This document shows, one piece after another, positions 381 through 8,034 of a stretch of DNA of 8,214 nt. Positions within the stretch are counted from its first letter, which is position 1; every line of letters begins with the position of its first letter. The position numbers and the translations under genes were made by a program. The notes beneath the pieces are model-generated. The model ran no database searches, had not been told where the DNA came from, and was given only the letters and a program-made list of their open reading frames with translations. Origin of the DNA: Desulfuromonas sp. SDB (GTDB lineage: Bacteria; SDB-A); assembly GCA_001412365.1 (NCBI GenBank), contig LKUE01000276.1:1-8214 (forward strand), written 5' to 3'.

Positions 381-2576
381 ATGCCTGAAAGGTATTACGC
401 CCACTCCACACTAAATCCGGATAAAAGCGACTGGCAATCGTTAAAAACGCACCTTGCAGGCGTTGCAGAGCTGGCCTCAGGTTTTGCCACCGATTTTAAT
501 GGCGAAAAACTTGCCTATCATGCTGGCCTCCTTCACGATCTTGGGAAATATACACAGGAATTCCAAAAAAGGCTTGAAGGGCAGAAAATAATGGTTGATC
601 ACTCAACGGCTGGAGCTCGTGAGGCATCACAATATTGTAATCCGTTACAAGCAAGAATCCTTCAATTTATCATAGCAGGTCATCATACCGGCCTTTTAAA
701 TTATGGGTCAGCTGCATCCGGTCTGGAGCGGAGACTCAATACTGCAAAATTATTCGATTATTCAGGCTATAAAAAGGAATTAAATATTGAAAATATTTCA
801 GATGAAATGCTAAATCTTAAAATTTTTGATTTTGGATTTTCTTTCTCTTTCTATATCCGAATGCTTTATTCCTGCCTTGTTGATGCCGATTTTCTTGATA
901 CCGAATCTTTTGTCAATTTGGAAAAATCCGGTCTCAGAGGAAAATATGACTCTCTTGATAAGCTCTCTCTAAAATTTTATAGTTATATGGAAAAAATCAA
1001 AGCCGACTCCGAATCTAATTATATCAATAACCATAGGGATGGGATTTATAATCAGTGTCGTAATATGGCTGACAGCGATCCAGGCCTCTTCACATTAACC
1101 GTTCCAACGGGAGGAGGAAAGACCCTCTCTTCCATGGCCTTTGCATTGGAACACCTGAAGAGAAACGACCTGAAAAGAATTTTTTATATTATTCCATATA
1201 CAAGCATCATTGAACAGAACGCCTCAATATTCAGAGAGATTTTCGGAGCAGAAAATGTTCTTGAACACCATAGTAATTTTGATCCAGATAAACAAATGAC
1301 AGAGAAATCTGAATATTCAAGGTCATTAGAGGAAAAATTAAGGCTTTCATCTGAAAACTGGGATATTCCTATCACAGTGACGACAAATGTCCAGTTTTTT
1401 GAGTCACTGTTTGCAAATAAAAGTTCAAGATGCCGTAAATTGCACAATCTTACACATAGTGTGATTATACTTGATGAAGCCCAGATGATCCCGACAGGAT
1501 TTTTAAGGCCATCTGTTATGGCATTGTCCGAACTGGTTTTAAATTATGGATCATCAATTGTTATCTGCACCGCAACGCAACCAAAATTGACTGAAATTCT
1601 TCCGGATTATATTAAATCTTTTGAAATAATGGATTTTCCTGATACTCTTTACAATGTTTTCAAACGAGTCAGGTTGTCCGATATTGGAGAAATCAGTGAT
1701 TCTGAATTATCAGAACGTCTCTTTGAACATAAGCAGGTTCTTTGCATAGTCAATACAAGAAAACACGCCGTCTCTCTCTATGAACAACTGTCTCAGAAGG
1801 GTAAATGCTTTCACCTAAGTGCCAGAATGTGCCCGGTTCACAGGAGAAAAATAATTCAGGAAATCAAGGAAAAACTGAAGAAAGGTGAGATTTGCAGGGT
1901 TATTTCAACTCAGTTGATCGAAGCGGGTGTCGACATCGATTTCCCTACAGTGTACAGGGTCATGGCAGGGATGGATTCCATATGCCAGGCTGCAGGAAGA
2001 TGCAACAGAGAAGGAAAAAGGAAATTTGGGGATGTATTTGTCTTTCGTTCTTCTGAAGAATATGGAAAGGCCATAGGCTGGCTAAGCAGAACTGCAGAGA
2101 TTGGCGAGATGGTAATCGGACAAAAAGATGATCCGATGACACTTGATTCAATCGAAGACTATTTTAAGGAATTATATTTCCATTCCGGAAACGAAGGTCT
2201 TGACACGGAAAAAATACTCGAGATGATAGAGGAAAATGGCAAATCAATGAAGTACCCATATGAGGATATCGGGCAAAAATTCAGACTTATCAAGGATTCC
2301 ACGAAAGACATTGTAATCCCCTGTGACGATAAATCGAAGGCGATAATTGAAAGAATCCGAAGGACCGGTTTTATTGGCAATGCTTTTAGAGAGCTACAGG
2401 GCTATGTGGTTAATGTATATCAAGATGAATTTGAGATTTACGAAAAATTGGGTTTATTAGAGTGTGTGGGGGAACGCTTTCATCTATTGCTGGATATTGG
2501 TAGCAATTATTCTAACAAAACCGGATTGTTAAATAGAAAAATTAATGGTAGAGATTCTTTATTGCTAATACATTAG
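381..2576 (+). CDS. cas3: CRISPR-associated helicase/nuclease Cas3 (type I-C)
   Basis: A 731-residue HD nuclease fused to a superfamily 2 helicase; Cascade recruits it to an R-loop, where it nicks and then unwinds and degrades the target DNA. The N-terminal HD domain (about 1-200) shows YYAHS (5-9), H24, HDLGK (52-56), DHS (73-75), GHH (100-102) and VDADF (167-171). The helicase shows Walker A PTGGGKT (242-248), PYTSIIEQN, a DEAQ box (365-368), a TAT motif III (397-399), STQLIEAGVDID and QAAGRCNR motif VI (536-543). About 150 residues follow as the C-terminal domain. The start is chosen because I-C Cas3 proteins begin with a similar YYAHS segment. There is no Shine-Dalgarno sequence before it, consistent with a leaderless first gene. 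DEAQ instead of DEAH is common in this family and does not suggest inactivity. Length and motifs indicate an intact enzyme. It is followed by cas5c after 3 bases. Confidence 0.97.
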   Translation: MPERYYAHSTLNPDKSDWQSLKTHLAGVAELASGFATDFNGEKLAYHAGLLHDLGKYTQEFQKRLEGQKIMVDHSTAGAREASQYCNPLQARILQFIIAGHHTGLLNYGSAASGLERRLNTAKLFDYSGYKKELNIENISDEMLNLKIFDFGFSFSFYIRMLYSCLVDADFLDTESFVNLEKSGLRGKYDSLDKLSLKFYSYMEKIKADSESNYINNHRDGIYNQCRNMADSDPGLFTLTVPTGGGKTLSSMAFALEHLKRNDLKRIFYIIPYTSIIEQNASIFREIFGAENVLEHHSNFDPDKQMTEKSEYSRSLEEKLRLSSENWDIPITVTTNVQFFESLFANKSSRCRKLHNLTHSVIILDEAQMIPTGFLRPSVMALSELVLNYGSSIVICTATQPKLTEILPDYIKSFEIMDFPDTLYNVFKRVRLSDIGEISDSELSERLFEHKQVLCIVNTRKHAVSLYEQLSQKGKCFHLSARMCPVHRRKIIQEIKEKLKKGEICRVISTQLIEAGVDIDFPTVYRVMAGMDSICQAAGRCNREGKRKFGDVFVFRSSEEYGKAIGWLSRTAEIGEMVIGQKDDPMTLDSIEDYFKELYFHSGNEGLDTEKILEMIEENGKSMKYPYEDIGQKFRLIKDSTKDIVIPCDDKSKAIIERIRRTGFIGNAFRELQGYVVNVYQDEFEIYEKLGLLECVGERFHLLLDIGSNYSNKTGLLNRKINGRDSLLLIH

Positions 2577-2579
2577 GGG

Positions 2580-3260
2580 GTGATTGCAATAGGCTTTGGA
2601 TTCAGACTGAAAGTCTGGGGCGATTATGCATGCTTCACTCGGCCTGAAATGAAGGTTGAAAGAGTAAGCTACGACGTAATTACACCATCTGCAGCAAGAG
2701 GAATCCTTGAAGCGATTTACTGGAAGCCTGCAATTTCCTGGAAGATAGATAAGATCCACATACTGAATCAGATAAAGTTTGACAATATCAGAAGGAATGA
2801 GGTACTGGGTACTATTCCTGTATCAAAGATTCAAAAGGCCATGAATGGCGAAGAAGTCGAGCTCTGCCAGGATGCAAATCAGGATCGTGCCCAGAGAGCT
2901 TCACTTCTTCTAAGAGATGTTTGCTATTGCATCGAAGCGCATTTTGAGATGACGAAAAAAGCCGGGTCGGACGATACACCAGAAAAGCATTATAATGTTG
3001 CACTTCGGCGGATGAGAAAAGGCCAGTGTTATCATTACCCTTATCTTGGGTGCAGGGAGTTTCCTGCACACTTTGAGTATATTGAAGGTGACATTCCCTG
3101 CTCATACTATTCAGGAGAAAGGGATCTCGGATTCATGCTTTGGGATCTTGAATTCAGCGAAGATCCAAAGGTGGAAGCCAAACCGGTTTTTTACAGGGCA
3201 TGTATGTCGGATGGCATAATTGATGTCGAAAAATGCCTCTGCTACGGAGGATTATCATGA
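2580..3260 (+). CDS. cas5c: Cas5c (Cas5d), pre-crRNA endoribonuclease and Cascade subunit, type I-C
   Basis: A RAMP-fold protein of up to 226 residues. In type I-C, which lacks Cas6, it cuts the repeat at the base of its hairpin and caps the crRNA 5' handle in Cascade. The N-terminal VWGDYACFTRPEMKVERVSY and the TPSAARGILEAIYWKP segment are typical. Y47, K136 and H137 align by context with the Tyr/Lys/His catalytic residues described for the Bacillus halodurans enzyme, so processing activity is expected. The start is uncertain. GTG 2580 is the only standard start codon before residue 24, but it sits inside GGGGGTGAT (2576-2584), a near-perfect complement to the 16S rRNA 3' end. That sequence would suit initiation a few codons later, where only ATA (2589) or CTG (2607) exist. 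Re-initiation after the cas3 stop 3 bases upstream is another possibility. Its TGA overlaps the cas8c ATG. Confidence 0.94.
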   Translation: MIAIGFGFRLKVWGDYACFTRPEMKVERVSYDVITPSAARGILEAIYWKPAISWKIDKIHILNQIKFDNIRRNEVLGTIPVSKIQKAMNGEEVELCQDANQDRAQRASLLLRDVCYCIEAHFEMTKKAGSDDTPEKHYNVALRRMRKGQCYHYPYLGCREFPAHFEYIEGDIPCSYYSGERDLGFMLWDLEFSEDPKVEAKPVFYRACMSDGIIDVEKCLCYGGLS

Positions 3261-5140
3261 TAATACAGTCTCTCTGTAAATATTATGATATTCTCAATAA
3301 AGATGGAAAAGTCTCAGGTCCTGGATATTCGAGTGCAAATGTATCTTTTAGTATTGTTATTGACGATGAAGGCAATCTAAAAAATATTATTGATTTAAGG
3401 ACTGGTGATAAGAAGCCTCGCCCGAAAACGATGAATGTTCCTCTCCATAAGTCTCGTTCCGGAAAAAATCCACCACCTTACTTCTTATGTGACAATGCAA
3501 AGTATGTATTTGGTGTTGAAGAGGTTAATAAATCGAAGTTTAAAAATGATTATAAATCCTCTAACAAGAACACATTCACTGTTCTGGAAGAAACCGAAAA
3601 AGATGTGATTCTGGTCGATGAATCAACACAGGCCAGATTTAATTCCTTCAGAGAACTCCATCTTTCTATCTTGAAAAATATAGATGATAGGAGTGCAGTA
3701 GCCTTTGTAAAATTCATTCAAAAATACAGTCCTGAAAAATTTCTAGACAACCCTAAGATTGTCCAGTATAAAGACCAGATTCTTGATAATGCCAGCTTCG
3801 TGTTTTACCACGATGGTTCATACCTTCACGAGAAGAGTTCCATTAGACGGGCATGGGAAGATTATCAAAATAATTCAATGGATAGATCCGATTGTCTATC
3901 GCAGTGCTTGATCTCAGGAAATAAGGAACCAATTGCAAGAACACATCAGCTAATAAAAGGGGTTGCAAATGCACAATCTGCCGGAGCTTCACTTGTTGGT
4001 TTCAATGACAAGTCGTTTAATTCCTATGGGAAAACACAGAGCTACAATGCACCCATAGGTAAATATGCGATGTTCAAATACACAACTGCCCTTAATTATC
4101 TTCTCTCGAATCCAAAACATAGGCTCTCTATAGGGGATTCAACGGTTATATTCTGGGCTGATGCTCCCGAGGGGATGTATGAGGATTTTACTAAATATTT
4201 TATTAATCCTGTTGAGAACAAGGGAGACAAAAAATCCAATGACGGTAACTCAGAGAAGAGGATCACTGATAATGATTTACTTGTTCTCGTAAAGGATGTC
4301 CTTGATATTGTTCGTAAGGGACAGGATATACGCGATGTTGATTTAGGAATTGATCCCAAAAAAATGTTTCATATTCTCGGCCTTTCTCCAAACAATGCCC
4401 GTCTCTCAGTAAGGTTCTGGTATATGAATGAATTCGGTGATTTTGTTGAGAAGGTTTCTCAGCATTATTTTGATATGGAGATTGAAAAGGATAATTTCGC
4501 ACCTCCTTTTATATCAACGTACAAACTGGTAAATGAAACTGTTCCAAAGCCACAACCATCTGAGAGGCCAAAACCGAATCCAATTCTCAGCGGGCTGTTG
4601 ATGAGATCAATTATTAACAATACCCCTTACCCTGTTCAGATGTATAACGCCATTTTGAGCCGTGTGAAAGTCGAAAGAACAATTAATTCAGTCAGAGCCG
4701 GGTTTATCAAGGCTTACCTCTTTAGACTTGCAAGAACCGGTTCAGCCTACGTAAAGGAGGACATGATTACTATGAGCTTAAATGAAACAAGCCAGGATGT
4801 GCCATACCGTCTTGGAAGATTATTTGCAGTTTTAGAAAAAGCACAGACAGATACCAGTAAAAGTATAGGAAGTACTATCAACAGCAAGTATTTCAGCAGT
4901 GCTTCAACGACACCTGCCGTTGTATTCCCGGTATTGATTAAGCTTGCCCAGCACCACATAGCAAAATCAGATTACGGAGTCAGGATTACGAAGGATATCG
5001 AAGATGTCCTTTCAGGAGTAGATAAATTTCCACCGTACCTGAATCTTGAGGAGCAGGGCATGTTTATGCTTGGATACTATCACCAGAAAAAGGCGAATTA
5101 TCAGAAGAAAGAAGAGGCAAAACCAGCGAAGGAGGCCTGA
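3257..5140 (+). CDS. cas8c: Cas8c (Csd1), large subunit of type I-C Cascade
   Basis: A 627-residue large subunit that recognises the PAM in double-stranded DNA and helps open the R-loop. Csd1 hallmarks are the N-terminal IQSLCKYYDIL, RSGKNPPPYFLCDN (67-80), GFNDKSFNSYG (248-258) and the C-terminal PYRLGRLFAVLEKAQ helix region. The start is ATG 3257, eight codons inside the longest frame (which opens at 3233). GGAGG at 3246-3250 lies 6 bases before it, and it forms an ATGA overlap with the cas5c stop, suggesting coupled translation. The protein is somewhat longer than many Csd1 members. A polar, charged stretch (about 320-337, rich in K, D, N, S and E) looks like a flexible linker, and the C-terminus carries a short Lys/Glu/Ala tail whose codons also supply the cas7c ribosome-binding site. 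The 3' fifth doubles as cas11c. Confidence 0.95.
   Translation: MIIQSLCKYYDILNKDGKVSGPGYSSANVSFSIVIDDEGNLKNIIDLRTGDKKPRPKTMNVPLHKSRSGKNPPPYFLCDNAKYVFGVEEVNKSKFKNDYKSSNKNTFTVLEETEKDVILVDESTQARFNSFRELHLSILKNIDDRSAVAFVKFIQKYSPEKFLDNPKIVQYKDQILDNASFVFYHDGSYLHEKSSIRRAWEDYQNNSMDRSDCLSQCLISGNKEPIARTHQLIKGVANAQSAGASLVGFNDKSFNSYGKTQSYNAPIGKYAMFKYTTALNYLLSNPKHRLSIGDSTVIFWADAPEGMYEDFTKYFINPVENKGDKKSNDGNSEKRITDNDLLVLVKDVLDIVRKGQDIRDVDLGIDPKKMFHILGLSPNNARLSVRFWYMNEFGDFVEKVSQHYFDMEIEKDNFAPPFISTYKLVNETVPKPQPSERPKPNPILSGLLMRSIINNTPYPVQMYNAILSRVKVERTINSVRAGFIKAYLFRLARTGSAYVKEDMITMSLNETSQDVPYRLGRLFAVLEKAQTDTSKSIGSTINSKYFSSASTTPAVVFPVLIKLAQHHIAKSDYGVRITKDIEDVLSGVDKFPPYLNLEEQGMFMLGYYHQKKANYQKKEEAKPAKEA
4753..4760 (+). 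promoter_or_regulatory. Internal Shine-Dalgarno within cas8c, for cas11c
   Basis: AAAGGAGG inside the cas8c reading frame (encoding part of V-K-E-D) is a full-strength ribosome-binding site. It is followed by two in-frame ATGs, at 4763 (2 bases away, too close) and 4772 (11 bases away, slightly long). It is stronger than the sites before cas4 and cas2, and sits at the boundary where the small-subunit domain begins in the Csd1 family. Confidence 0.7.
4772..5140 (+). CDS. cas11c: Cas11c small subunit, translated from inside cas8c
   Basis: An in-frame internal gene covering Cas8c residues 506-627, giving a 122-residue protein starting MSLNETSQDVPYRLG. In studied type I-C systems (for example Desulfovibrio vulgaris) a separate small subunit of about this size is made from an internal start in cas8c and forms the inner belly filament of Cascade, stabilising the R-loop. 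Here the sequence shows a strong internal ribosome-binding site (4753-4760) followed by ATG 4763 and ATG 4772. I prefer 4772 for spacing; 4763 would give 125 residues. The content is mainly helical-looking, with hydrophobic heptad-like stretches (RLGRLFAVLEKAQ and VFPVLIKLAQHHI). It shares its stop with cas8c, 3 bases before cas7c. It is inferred from position, size and the ribosome-binding site. Confidence 0.75.
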   Translation: MSLNETSQDVPYRLGRLFAVLEKAQTDTSKSIGSTINSKYFSSASTTPAVVFPVLIKLAQHHIAKSDYGVRITKDIEDVLSGVDKFPPYLNLEEQGMFMLGYYHQKKANYQKKEEAKPAKEA

Positions 5141-5143
5141 TTT

Positions 5144-5998
5144 ATGAGCAACCCGATAAAAAACAGATATGAATTTGTGTTGTTGTTTGATGTAGAGAAC
5201 GGAAACCCCAACGGCGATCCCGATATGGGAAATATGCCAAGGGTCGATCCTCAGACCGGGCATGGAATTGTGACGGATGTTTGTCTTAAAAGAAAAGTTC
5301 GTGACTTTATTGATATGGTGAAAACCGGAGAACCGGGTTACGATATCTATGTCAAATCCGGTGCTATTCTTAACTTACAAAATAAAAAGGCCTATGATTC
5401 GCTTGGAATAGAGCCTAAAGGAAAAAAAGATAGTCCTGATGTAAGAGCCACAGAATTTATGTGTAAAAATTTCTTTGATATCCGGACATTTGGTGCTGTT
5501 ATGTCCACTGACGTGAACTGCGGTCAGGTCAGAGGACCGGTTCAAATTAATTTCGGAAGAAGCATCGATCCCATATTCCAGCAGGAAGTTACCGTTACCC
5601 GCCTTGCAGTTACGAAGGAGGAGGATATTAAAAAGGGCCAGACAATGGGAAAGAAGCAGATCCTTCCATATGCCCTTTACCGTACCGAGGGATACATCTC
5701 TGCAAATCTTGCCAATAAGACAACCGGATTTAACGAGGATGATCTCGAACTCTTCTGGGACAGTCTTGTTAATATGTTTGAGCATGATCATTCTGCGGCA
5801 CGAGGGAAGATGTCTGCAAGAAAATTGATCGTCTTCAAACATGCAACAGAGTTAGGGTCATGCCAAGCGCATAAATTGTTTGATCTGGTAAAGATCAATA
5901 AAAATTCCGGTGACCTTCCTCCCCGATCATTTAGCGATTACGATATCGAAATATCACAAGATGTTCCTGACGGTGTTGAATTAATAGAAAAGTTATGA
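5144..5998 (+). CDS. cas7c: Cas7c (Csd2), Cascade backbone subunit, type I-C
   Basis: A 284-residue RAMP protein; several copies wrap the crRNA spacer and form the helical backbone of Cascade. The N-terminal YEFVLLFDVENGNPNGDPD (9-27) with its Asn/Gly-rich turn, the FGAVMSTDVNCGQ segment (about 116-128) and RGPVQINFGRS (130-140) are characteristic of Csd2. So is the late FEHDHSAARGKMSARKLIVFKH stretch. The length matches the family. GGAGG at 5131-5135 lies 8 bases before the ATG, with a 3-base gap to the cas8c stop. This is one of the clearest ribosome-binding sites in the operon, fitting a subunit needed in the highest copy number. Its TGA overlaps the cas4 ATG (ATGA). Confidence 0.97.
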   Translation: MSNPIKNRYEFVLLFDVENGNPNGDPDMGNMPRVDPQTGHGIVTDVCLKRKVRDFIDMVKTGEPGYDIYVKSGAILNLQNKKAYDSLGIEPKGKKDSPDVRATEFMCKNFFDIRTFGAVMSTDVNCGQVRGPVQINFGRSIDPIFQQEVTVTRLAVTKEEDIKKGQTMGKKQILPYALYRTEGYISANLANKTTGFNEDDLELFWDSLVNMFEHDHSAARGKMSARKLIVFKHATELGSCQAHKLFDLVKINKNSGDLPPRSFSDYDIEISQDVPDGVELIEKL

Positions 5999-6687
5999 AC
6001 TCCTGCGTTTTTTCTGACGAAGATCTATTATCTCTGTCAGGAATACAACATTTCTATTTTTGCAAACGTCAGTGGGCATTGATCCATATAGAACAGCAGT
6101 GGAGAGATAACCTTCGGACAACACAGGGTCACCTCTTACATGAGAGAGCTGATGACCCGTATTTTAACGAAACGCGAGGTGTTATTTTATTATCAAGAGC
6201 ATTTCCTGTCGTATCCTATCATCTCGGTTTTTATGGTATTGCAGATCTCGTAGAATTCAGGAAATCGGAGGCCGGCGTGTCTCTTCCCGGTCATGAAGGG
6301 TTATGGCTGATAAATCCTGTCGAATATAAGCGGGGCAGCCCGAAGATTGATGAGAGGGATGCGGTTCAGGTCTGTGCACAGGCCATATGCCTCGAGGAAA
6401 TGTTTGGAACTCATATCGATTCAGGCGACCTTTATTATTATGAAACACGGAGGAGAATGACAGTTGATATTTCCGATTTCCTGAGGGATCTTGTATTTTC
6501 ACTCTCGAAGGAGATGCATGATATATATCGTTCGGGACTTACACCGCCAGCAGTGAAAACCAGGAATTGCAGGTCGTGCTCATTGTATGACATATGTATC
6601 CCAAATCTCACAAAGAAGAGAGTCTCTGTCAAAAATTATATCCAAAAGCATGTAAAAAAAGCAACAGAGATCGATAATCCTGATTAG
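5995..6687 (+). CDS. cas4: Cas4, RecB-like exonuclease with iron-sulfur cluster (adaptation)
   Basis: A 230-residue PD-(D/E)xK nuclease that associates with Cas1-Cas2 in type I-C systems to trim prespacers and check for the PAM. The iron-sulfur cluster cysteines are visible as C23 (FYFCKRQWAL) and C192, C195 and C201 (CRSCSLYDIC). The nuclease core shows H49 (GHLLHERAD), D84 (GIADLVEF), and E110 and K112 (VEYKRG), followed by the QVCAQAICLEE helix. All of these are present, so activity is expected. The ATG is in a 4-base ATGA overlap with cas7c and there is no strong Shine-Dalgarno sequence, so translation probably depends on coupling. That may keep Cas4 lower than Cas7. It is followed by cas1 after 15 bases. 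Confidence 0.96.
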   Translation: MNSCVFSDEDLLSLSGIQHFYFCKRQWALIHIEQQWRDNLRTTQGHLLHERADDPYFNETRGVILLSRAFPVVSYHLGFYGIADLVEFRKSEAGVSLPGHEGLWLINPVEYKRGSPKIDERDAVQVCAQAICLEEMFGTHIDSGDLYYYETRRRMTVDISDFLRDLVFSLSKEMHDIYRSGLTPPAVKTRNCRSCSLYDICIPNLTKKRVSVKNYIQKHVKKATEIDNPD

Positions 6688-6702
6688 TAAAAGGTGGGTT
6701 TA

Positions 6703-7734
6703 GTGAGAAAACTTCTGAATACACTCTATGTCACCAATCCCGATTCATACCTTACGAAAGACGGGAATAATGTTATCGTAAAGGTTGACAGAGAAGAAAA
6801 ATTTCGGATTCCGGTGCACAATCTTGAAGCGATAGTCTGTATGGGATATATGGGTGCAAGCCCCCAACTCATGAGGCTTTGTTCAGATAATGGTGTCGGA
6901 TTATCCTTTCTTTCCCGTAACGGACAGTTTCTTGCGAGAATATCAGGCAAGATTAAGGGAAATGTCCTCCTCAGAAGAACCCAGTTCAGGTATGCTGATG
7001 ATCCTATAGTATCCCTCGATCTCTCAAAACGGTTTATCATCGGCAAACTGGTAAACTGTAGAGCGGTTCTTGGAAGAAGCTTGAGAGATCACCGGGATGT
7101 TATCAACAACGATAAAGTCAGATCCATTGAGGGTTATCTTATTGATAATATTAACCGGGTTCCTGATTCCTTAAATTGCGATATCCTCAGAGGAATTGAG
7201 GGGAATTGTGCAAAATTTTACTTTTCTGCAATGGATGAACTTATTTTACAGCAGAAAGATGATTTTTTTATTAAAGAAAGAAACAGGAGACCGCCTCTGG
7301 ATAATATGAACGCCCTCTTATCATTTTTATATACATTATTAGCCCATGATACTGAATCTGCACTGGAAACAGTCGGTCTTGATCCATACGTAGGTTTTTT
7401 CCATACGGACCGGCCAGGGAGAGCGAGCCTTGCTCTTGATATAATGGAGGAATTAAGGCCGTTTATGGCTGACCGTTTGGCCCTGAACCTGATTAATCTT
7501 AGAAAGATAAAGGGTTCGGATTTTATCAAAAAAGAAAATGGGGCTGTATTTATGACTGATAACTGCAGAAAGGAAGTTCTTGCTTCATGGCAGAAAAGGA
7601 AGCAAGACCAGATAAAACATCCTTATCTGGGGGAGAATATTCCTGTTGGTCTGCTTCCCTATATCCAAGCTATGCTGATGGCACGGTACCTGAGAGGAGA
7701 TATCGATGGTTATCCACCGTTTTTCATGAACTGA
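6703..7734 (+). CDS. cas1: Cas1, CRISPR integrase (type I-C)
   Basis: A 343-residue metal-dependent integrase that, with Cas2, inserts new spacers at the leader end of the array. The start is GTG 6703, three codons inside the longest frame. AAGGTG (6691-6696) is 6 bases upstream, and the resulting MRKLLNTLYVTNPDSYL matches how type I-C Cas1 proteins usually begin; GTG 6694 lies within the ribosome-binding site. The N-terminal beta domain is followed by the helical catalytic domain, with E166 (GIEGNCAKFYF), H234 (GFFHTDRPGR) and D246 (LALDIMEELRP) as the expected metal ligands. RPFMADRLALNLIN and the C-terminal PYLGENIPVGLLPYIQAM region are typical. It appears intact. Confidence 0.97.
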   Translation: MRKLLNTLYVTNPDSYLTKDGNNVIVKVDREEKFRIPVHNLEAIVCMGYMGASPQLMRLCSDNGVGLSFLSRNGQFLARISGKIKGNVLLRRTQFRYADDPIVSLDLSKRFIIGKLVNCRAVLGRSLRDHRDVINNDKVRSIEGYLIDNINRVPDSLNCDILRGIEGNCAKFYFSAMDELILQQKDDFFIKERNRRPPLDNMNALLSFLYTLLAHDTESALETVGLDPYVGFFHTDRPGRASLALDIMEELRPFMADRLALNLINLRKIKGSDFIKKENGAVFMTDNCRKEVLASWQKRKQDQIKHPYLGENIPVGLLPYIQAMLMARYLRGDIDGYPPFFMN

Positions 7735-7743
7735 GTGATATTA

Positions 7744-8034
7744 ATGATGGTTCTTGTCACTTACGATGTAAATACAGAGACTCCTGAGGGGAGGGCAAGG
7801 CTTAGAAAAATTGCCAAACTATGTGTAAATTATGGCCAAAGGGTCCAGAATTCTGTTTTTGAGTGTCTTATCGACCCCTCGCAGTTTGAAATCCTCAGGC
7901 AAAATTTAATCGGCATCGTGGATGAAGAGAAAGATAGTATAAGGTTTTATTTTCTTGGAAAAAACTGGAAAAGAAGAGTGGAGCATTACGGTGCCAAAGC
8001 CGGTTATGATCCTGAAGGATTATTAATAGCATAG
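7744..8034 (+). CDS. cas2: Cas2, structural partner of Cas1 in spacer integration
   Basis: A 96-residue ferredoxin-fold protein whose dimer bridges two Cas1 dimers and sets the spacer length. MMVLVTYDVNTETPEGRARL opens the protein with the conserved Asp at residue 8 on the first strand. NYGQRVQNSVFECLID and FYFLGKNWKRRVEHYG are typical of the type I-C branch. I start at ATG 7744 because GAGTGAT (7733-7739) is a partial ribosome-binding site with suitable spacing. The longest frame begins at GTG 7735, which is inside that site. ATG 7747 is an equally possible start, one residue shorter. It is the last gene of the operon. Confidence 0.96.
   Translation: MMVLVTYDVNTETPEGRARLRKIAKLCVNYGQRVQNSVFECLIDPSQFEILRQNLIGIVDEEKDSIRFYFLGKNWKRRVEHYGAKAGYDPEGLLIA

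Follow-up and report, generated by a model that had tools for sequence, protein, structure and literature searches.

An in-frame gene for the small subunit Cas11c almost certainly lies within cas8c of a methanogen-type I-C CRISPR-Cas operon

INTRODUCTION

The type I-C complex of D. vulgaris contains one Cas8c and two small subunits, and the small subunit corresponds to Cas8c residues 489 to 612, a length of 124 amino acids (PMC7684278). Cas11 production by internal initiation is known for type I-C, and that report calls it widespread in subtypes I-B, I-C, and I-D; the preliminary description of the present DNA was right to treat internal translation of Cas11 from cas8c as already established in I-C, namely, in D. 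vulgaris. In Haloferax volcanii, Cas11b of the I-B system arises by internal in-frame initiation in cas8, which was billed as the first experimental proof in archaea (PMC11899642).

We analyzed a window of 8,214 nucleotides that makes up the whole of contig LKUE01000276.1 in the Desulfuromonas sp. SDB assembly GCA_001412365.1. The last fifth of its cas8c gene is, judging from sequence comparison, almost certainly also translated separately, from ATG 4772, into the small subunit Cas11. In common with D. vulgaris Cas11c (PDB 7kha), this gene opens in frame inside cas8c, at the codon that aligns between the two, and the two internal products are of similar length (about 124 amino acids in D. vulgaris and 122 here). 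The resemblance to H. volcanii Cas11b lies in an archaeal-type Cas11 with an internal in-frame start in a cas8 gene, whereas the H. volcanii system belongs to subtype I-B and has only a degenerate Shine-Dalgarno sequence (GGATG), in contrast to the strong Shine-Dalgarno-type signal of this I-C locus. The D. vulgaris-type gene of the DP4 plasmid record (L074) has GTG with GGAGG 5 nt upstream, while in the window the start is ATG, GGAGG lies 11 nt upstream, and TGATT stands between the two. The window gene extends the known internally initiated Cas11c proteins, possibly with a variant initiation signal.

RESULTS

A complete type I-C operon lies on the forward strand of the window, in the order cas3, cas5c, cas8c, cas7c, cas4, cas1c, cas2, which is also the gene order of the related DP4 plasmid. 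The genes are cas3 (381 to 2576; TIGR01587, E = 4.4e-46), cas5c (2580 to 3260 as called; TIGR01876, E = 1.1e-58), cas8c (3257 to 5140; TIGR01863, E = 1.1e-128), cas7c (5144 to 5998; TIGR02589, E = 9.8e-103), and the adaptation genes cas4 (5995 to 6687; TIGR00372), cas1c (6694 to 7734; TIGR03640), and cas2 (7735 to 8034; TIGR01573). The type I-C profiles TIGR01876, TIGR01863, TIGR02589, and TIGR03640 all exceeded their cut-offs, and the end of the window, past cas2, reads as a first CRISPR repeat. For cas8c, the open reading frame finder takes ATG 3233, while a GGAGG and the alignment of the start column favor ATG 3257 (window 3233 to 3259). For cas2, GTG 7735 was called, and relatives begin at an ATG ATG pair aligned with 7744 (window 7735 to 7746). 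Among the relatives, cas8c appears to be interrupted in L092 (G110), where separate pieces match and one carries an in-frame TGA, and in L072 (G213) and L079 (G166), with one in-frame TAG each.

The operon and its assembly differ in type. The 16S of the assembly is bacterial, and the cas8c of the window is nearest to that of a Methanomicrobiales genome (75% identity to G117), Methanomicrobiales being the order of a Methanofollis genome. The tetranucleotide fit of the contig to the sampled rest of the assembly was 0.33, against 0.55 to 0.90 for other sampled contigs, and no other cas8c was found in the four genomes searched from the order and phylum of the assembly. Both a mis-binned contig and a recent horizontal transfer are possible. 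The CCUCC tail of 16S rRNA is near universal, and for this reason the argument from ribosome pairing stands under either origin.

Near the 3′ end of cas8c, which is read from 3257 (or 3233) to 5140, the octamer AAAGGAGG occupies positions 4753 to 4760, its single occurrence on the forward strand. ATG 4763 and ATG 4772 follow in the cas8c frame, and translation from 4772 to 5137 gives 122 residues, with the stop codon ending at 5140; the sequence bears out the preliminary description in each of these points. The Cas8c C-terminal domain was recognized by homology to Pfam PF09709 at positions 444 to 558. The 122-residue product matched solved Cas11c chains with E values of 2.7e-26 to 2.4e-22. The best match was to 8g9s_H, the type I-C Cas11 of PDB 8g9s and related entries, which comes from a bacterial system and is diverged in sequence from the window product. 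The D. vulgaris Cas11c chain 7kha_K also matched (E = 5.5e-24), and its residue 2 aligned with residue 2 counted from 4772, so that the start of the experimentally defined D. vulgaris protein falls on the codon aligned with 4772. In the DP4 record, this codon is GTG, and the 124 amino acids from there to the stop equal the D. vulgaris small subunit in length. That annotated record has no separate cas11 gene at the aligned site; annotation thus does miss cas11c, as had been predicted for gene callers.

Conservation of the start was followed in 53 distinct cas8c genes, comprising 40 branch members (at least 45% identity, mostly Methanomicrobiales) and 13 outgroups. One peptide search pattern, VKEDMITM, overlaps the site and could favor relatives in which this peptide is retained; a whole-protein search, free of this bias, supplied the larger set of cas8c relatives. 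The codon aligned with 4772 was GTG in 40 genes, ATG in 12, and ATT in 1, the last being a poorly aligned Parabacteroides gene with ATG as its next codon. A start codon therefore stands in this column in 52 of the 53 genes, a strictness equaled only at the start column of cas8c itself (48/48). Every valine at the column is encoded by GTG (40/40), although GTG makes up about 30% of valine codons in these genes overall (log10 P = -21.5 if the genes are taken as independent). On a FastTree phylogeny, 10 codon changes at this column corresponded to 10 amino acid changes, with zero synonymous changes, whereas codon changes outnumbered amino acid changes by 8 to 22 in each of 28 other valine-rich columns on the same tree. 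This pattern is, on the evidence of aligned codons, that of a nucleotide-level constraint as a start codon. Together with the homology to solved chains and the alignment with the D. vulgaris start, the retention of a start codon across the 53 relatives upholds the proposal of a hidden Cas11c in cas8c. The AGT that follows the start is conserved (rank 1 to 2) but was not counted as separate evidence, since at other serine columns of cas8c the choice between AGY and TCN tends to persist along the phylogeny.

The internal start at 4772 is preceded by a ribosome-binding signal of unusual spacing, in that the GGAGG of AAAGGAGG, the octamer being the proposed 5′ half of the signal, ends 11 nt before the ATG. 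For the 20 nt before 4772, the predicted duplex with the 16S tail had an energy of -12.7 kcal/mol, equal to cas7 (-12.7), weaker than cas5c (-17.3), and stronger than all remaining genes of the operon; the site had rightly been ranked among the strongest of the operon. AAGGAGG occurs 5 times on both strands of the window against 1.36 expected from shuffling, so the motif by itself is weak evidence, and the frequency of the octamer within the window was dropped as proof because it is too weak alone. Upon synonymous reshuffling of the window gene, 12.7% of trials reached the observed energy. Across the branch, the mean pairing energy at the 4772 column was the lowest of 616 cas8c columns, while the excess over synonymous reshuffles ranked 3rd of 616 by energy and 11th by z; some members paired weakly (-5.9 to -7.1 kcal/mol). 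There is thus a modest codon-level excess of duplex signal beyond the demand of the peptide, and because it is modest, the case was not rested on the reshuffling test. GGAGG is present in 21 of the 40 branch genes, each time 11 nt upstream of the start, and GAGG is present in 35; in the outgroups, GGAGG sits 5 or 8 nt before the start. Conservation of AAAGGAGG beyond its V-K-E-D codons, raised in the preliminary description, held only in part, in that GAG is favored and the octamer is not strongly conserved among cas8c relatives. The features invariant in the branch are the ATG/GTG start column itself and TGAT at -8 to -5 (40/40). The leucine codons that overlap TGAT are TTG or CTG in 17 of 17 cases (rank 1 of 59 leucine columns), and ATT accounts for 90% of the overlapping isoleucine codons (rank 1 of 26 isoleucine columns).

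We weighed these data against two readings other than a sole start at 4772. Cas11c could begin at ATG 4763 (4763 to 4765), alone or along with 4772, giving 125 amino acids; this codon is in frame and lies directly 3′ of the Shine-Dalgarno-like motif, and the aligned codon in the branch is ATG in 20, TTG in 11, and GTG in 3 of the 40 members. It is CTG in the other 6, and GAG, GAA, or others in the outgroups, the GGAGG lies 2 nt away, and the solved D. vulgaris chain begins at the 4772 position and not at 4763. The NTG pattern at 4763 is itself accounted for by the constrained TGAT. A start at 4763 is therefore very unlikely, and conservation and the solved chain rule it out as the main start; the choice between the two ATGs, which the preliminary description had left open, is settled for 4772. 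That no separate product is made, with the motif and start codons as by-products of the Cas8c peptide, is barely credible. A K/Q-E-D-M/L-I peptide often encodes a Shine-Dalgarno-like site unaided, and the octamer is not conserved as such; the decisive evidence is start-codon conservation and not the single-sequence motif. A by-product of the peptide is at odds with 40 valine codons lacking any synonymous change across the tree and with an invariant TGAT whose third bases are constrained, as well as with the separate Cas11c established for D. vulgaris I-C (PMC7684278).

How the ribosome would recognize 4772 is more evenly balanced. The initiation signal may be split, with GGAGG and TGATT (4764 to 4768, -8 to -4) binding both halves of the 16S tail; TGATT, the proposed 3′ half, complements the AUCA stretch of the tail GGAUCACCUCCU, and the tail of two archaeal relatives reads GGATCACCTCCT. 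RNA duplex prediction gives -12.7 kcal/mol for a pairing in which AGGAGG and TGATT bind this tail on either side of a 3-nt bulge, an arrangement that would resolve the problem of the 11-nt spacing. The chances of this split signal and of a single Shine-Dalgarno are about equal. A 4772 start with a single Shine-Dalgarno, in which GGAGG is tolerated at 11 nt and some other need, for example a start region free of structure, preserves TGATT, is only slightly short of an even prospect. It agrees with the good pairing of GGAGG alone (-10.0 for the site before 4763) and with the retention of TGATT instead of TGATC, though TGATC would pair better. Against it, conservation is stronger for TGAT than for GGAGG, the offset of TGAT matches that within the extended Shine-Dalgarno GGAGGTGATT before cas5c, and the outgroups that have a normal spacing of 5 to 8 nt lack TGAT. 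Because the peptide favors such a site, as the reshuffles that match indicate, we only infer the split pairing. Nothing relevant to bulged Shine-Dalgarno pairing in archaea was found in the literature searched.

The start of cas5c was also unusual. The called GTG 2580 overlaps the Shine-Dalgarno sequence GGGGGTGATT itself (window 2571 to 2592), and the codon 8 nt behind GGGGGTGATT, aligned with the ATG of relatives, reads ATA in the window, making ATA 2589 the probable real start. In the branch, this column is ATA, ATT, or ATC in 31 genes, and the others mostly have ATG, with a single TTG. Four loci (L084, L085, L088, and L090) lack ATG, GTG, and TTG from the in-frame stop to the ATC or ATT that opens the conserved cas5c domain. 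The aligned codons suggest that cas5c uses a non-AUG start (AUA, AUU, or AUC); the literature searched contained nothing relevant on non-AUG cas5 starts.

DISCUSSION

We conclude with high confidence that cas8c carries a gene within a gene at its 3′ end, where a second initiation at ATG 4772 would yield the 122-residue Cas11c. The analysis shows the homology, the constraint on the start codon, and the signal for ribosome binding, and translation, stoichiometry, and function are proposed by analogy. Ribosomes would most likely initiate at 3257 to make Cas8c and, independently, at 4772 to make Cas11c, so that, as in homologues, the small subunit would be produced alongside full-length Cas8c. On the model of D. 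vulgaris, Cas11c would join Cascade beside the Cas8c C-terminal domain along the Cas7 backbone, probably in two copies per complex, and would hold or guide the non-target DNA strand in R-loop formation (PMC7684278). With less certainty, GGAGG and TGATT around the 3-nt bulge may place the ribosome in a normal register despite the 11-nt spacing. We suggest only tentatively, since we consider it somewhat improbable, that in Methanomicrobiales I-C systems a split Shine-Dalgarno for Cas11c and an AUA, AUU, or AUC start behind a near-perfect Shine-Dalgarno for cas5c jointly set the subunit ratios. The non-AUG start of cas5c may be a more novel lead than cas11c.

These results extend the hidden Cas11c to the methanogen-type I-C branch with nucleotide-level evidence. 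With the start codon fixed, the small subunit can be correctly annotated and cloned. The conservation test applied here, in which valine is always GTG with zero synonymous change, is a general route to genes within genes. The split Shine-Dalgarno, if true, would show a coding sequence accommodating an initiation signal.
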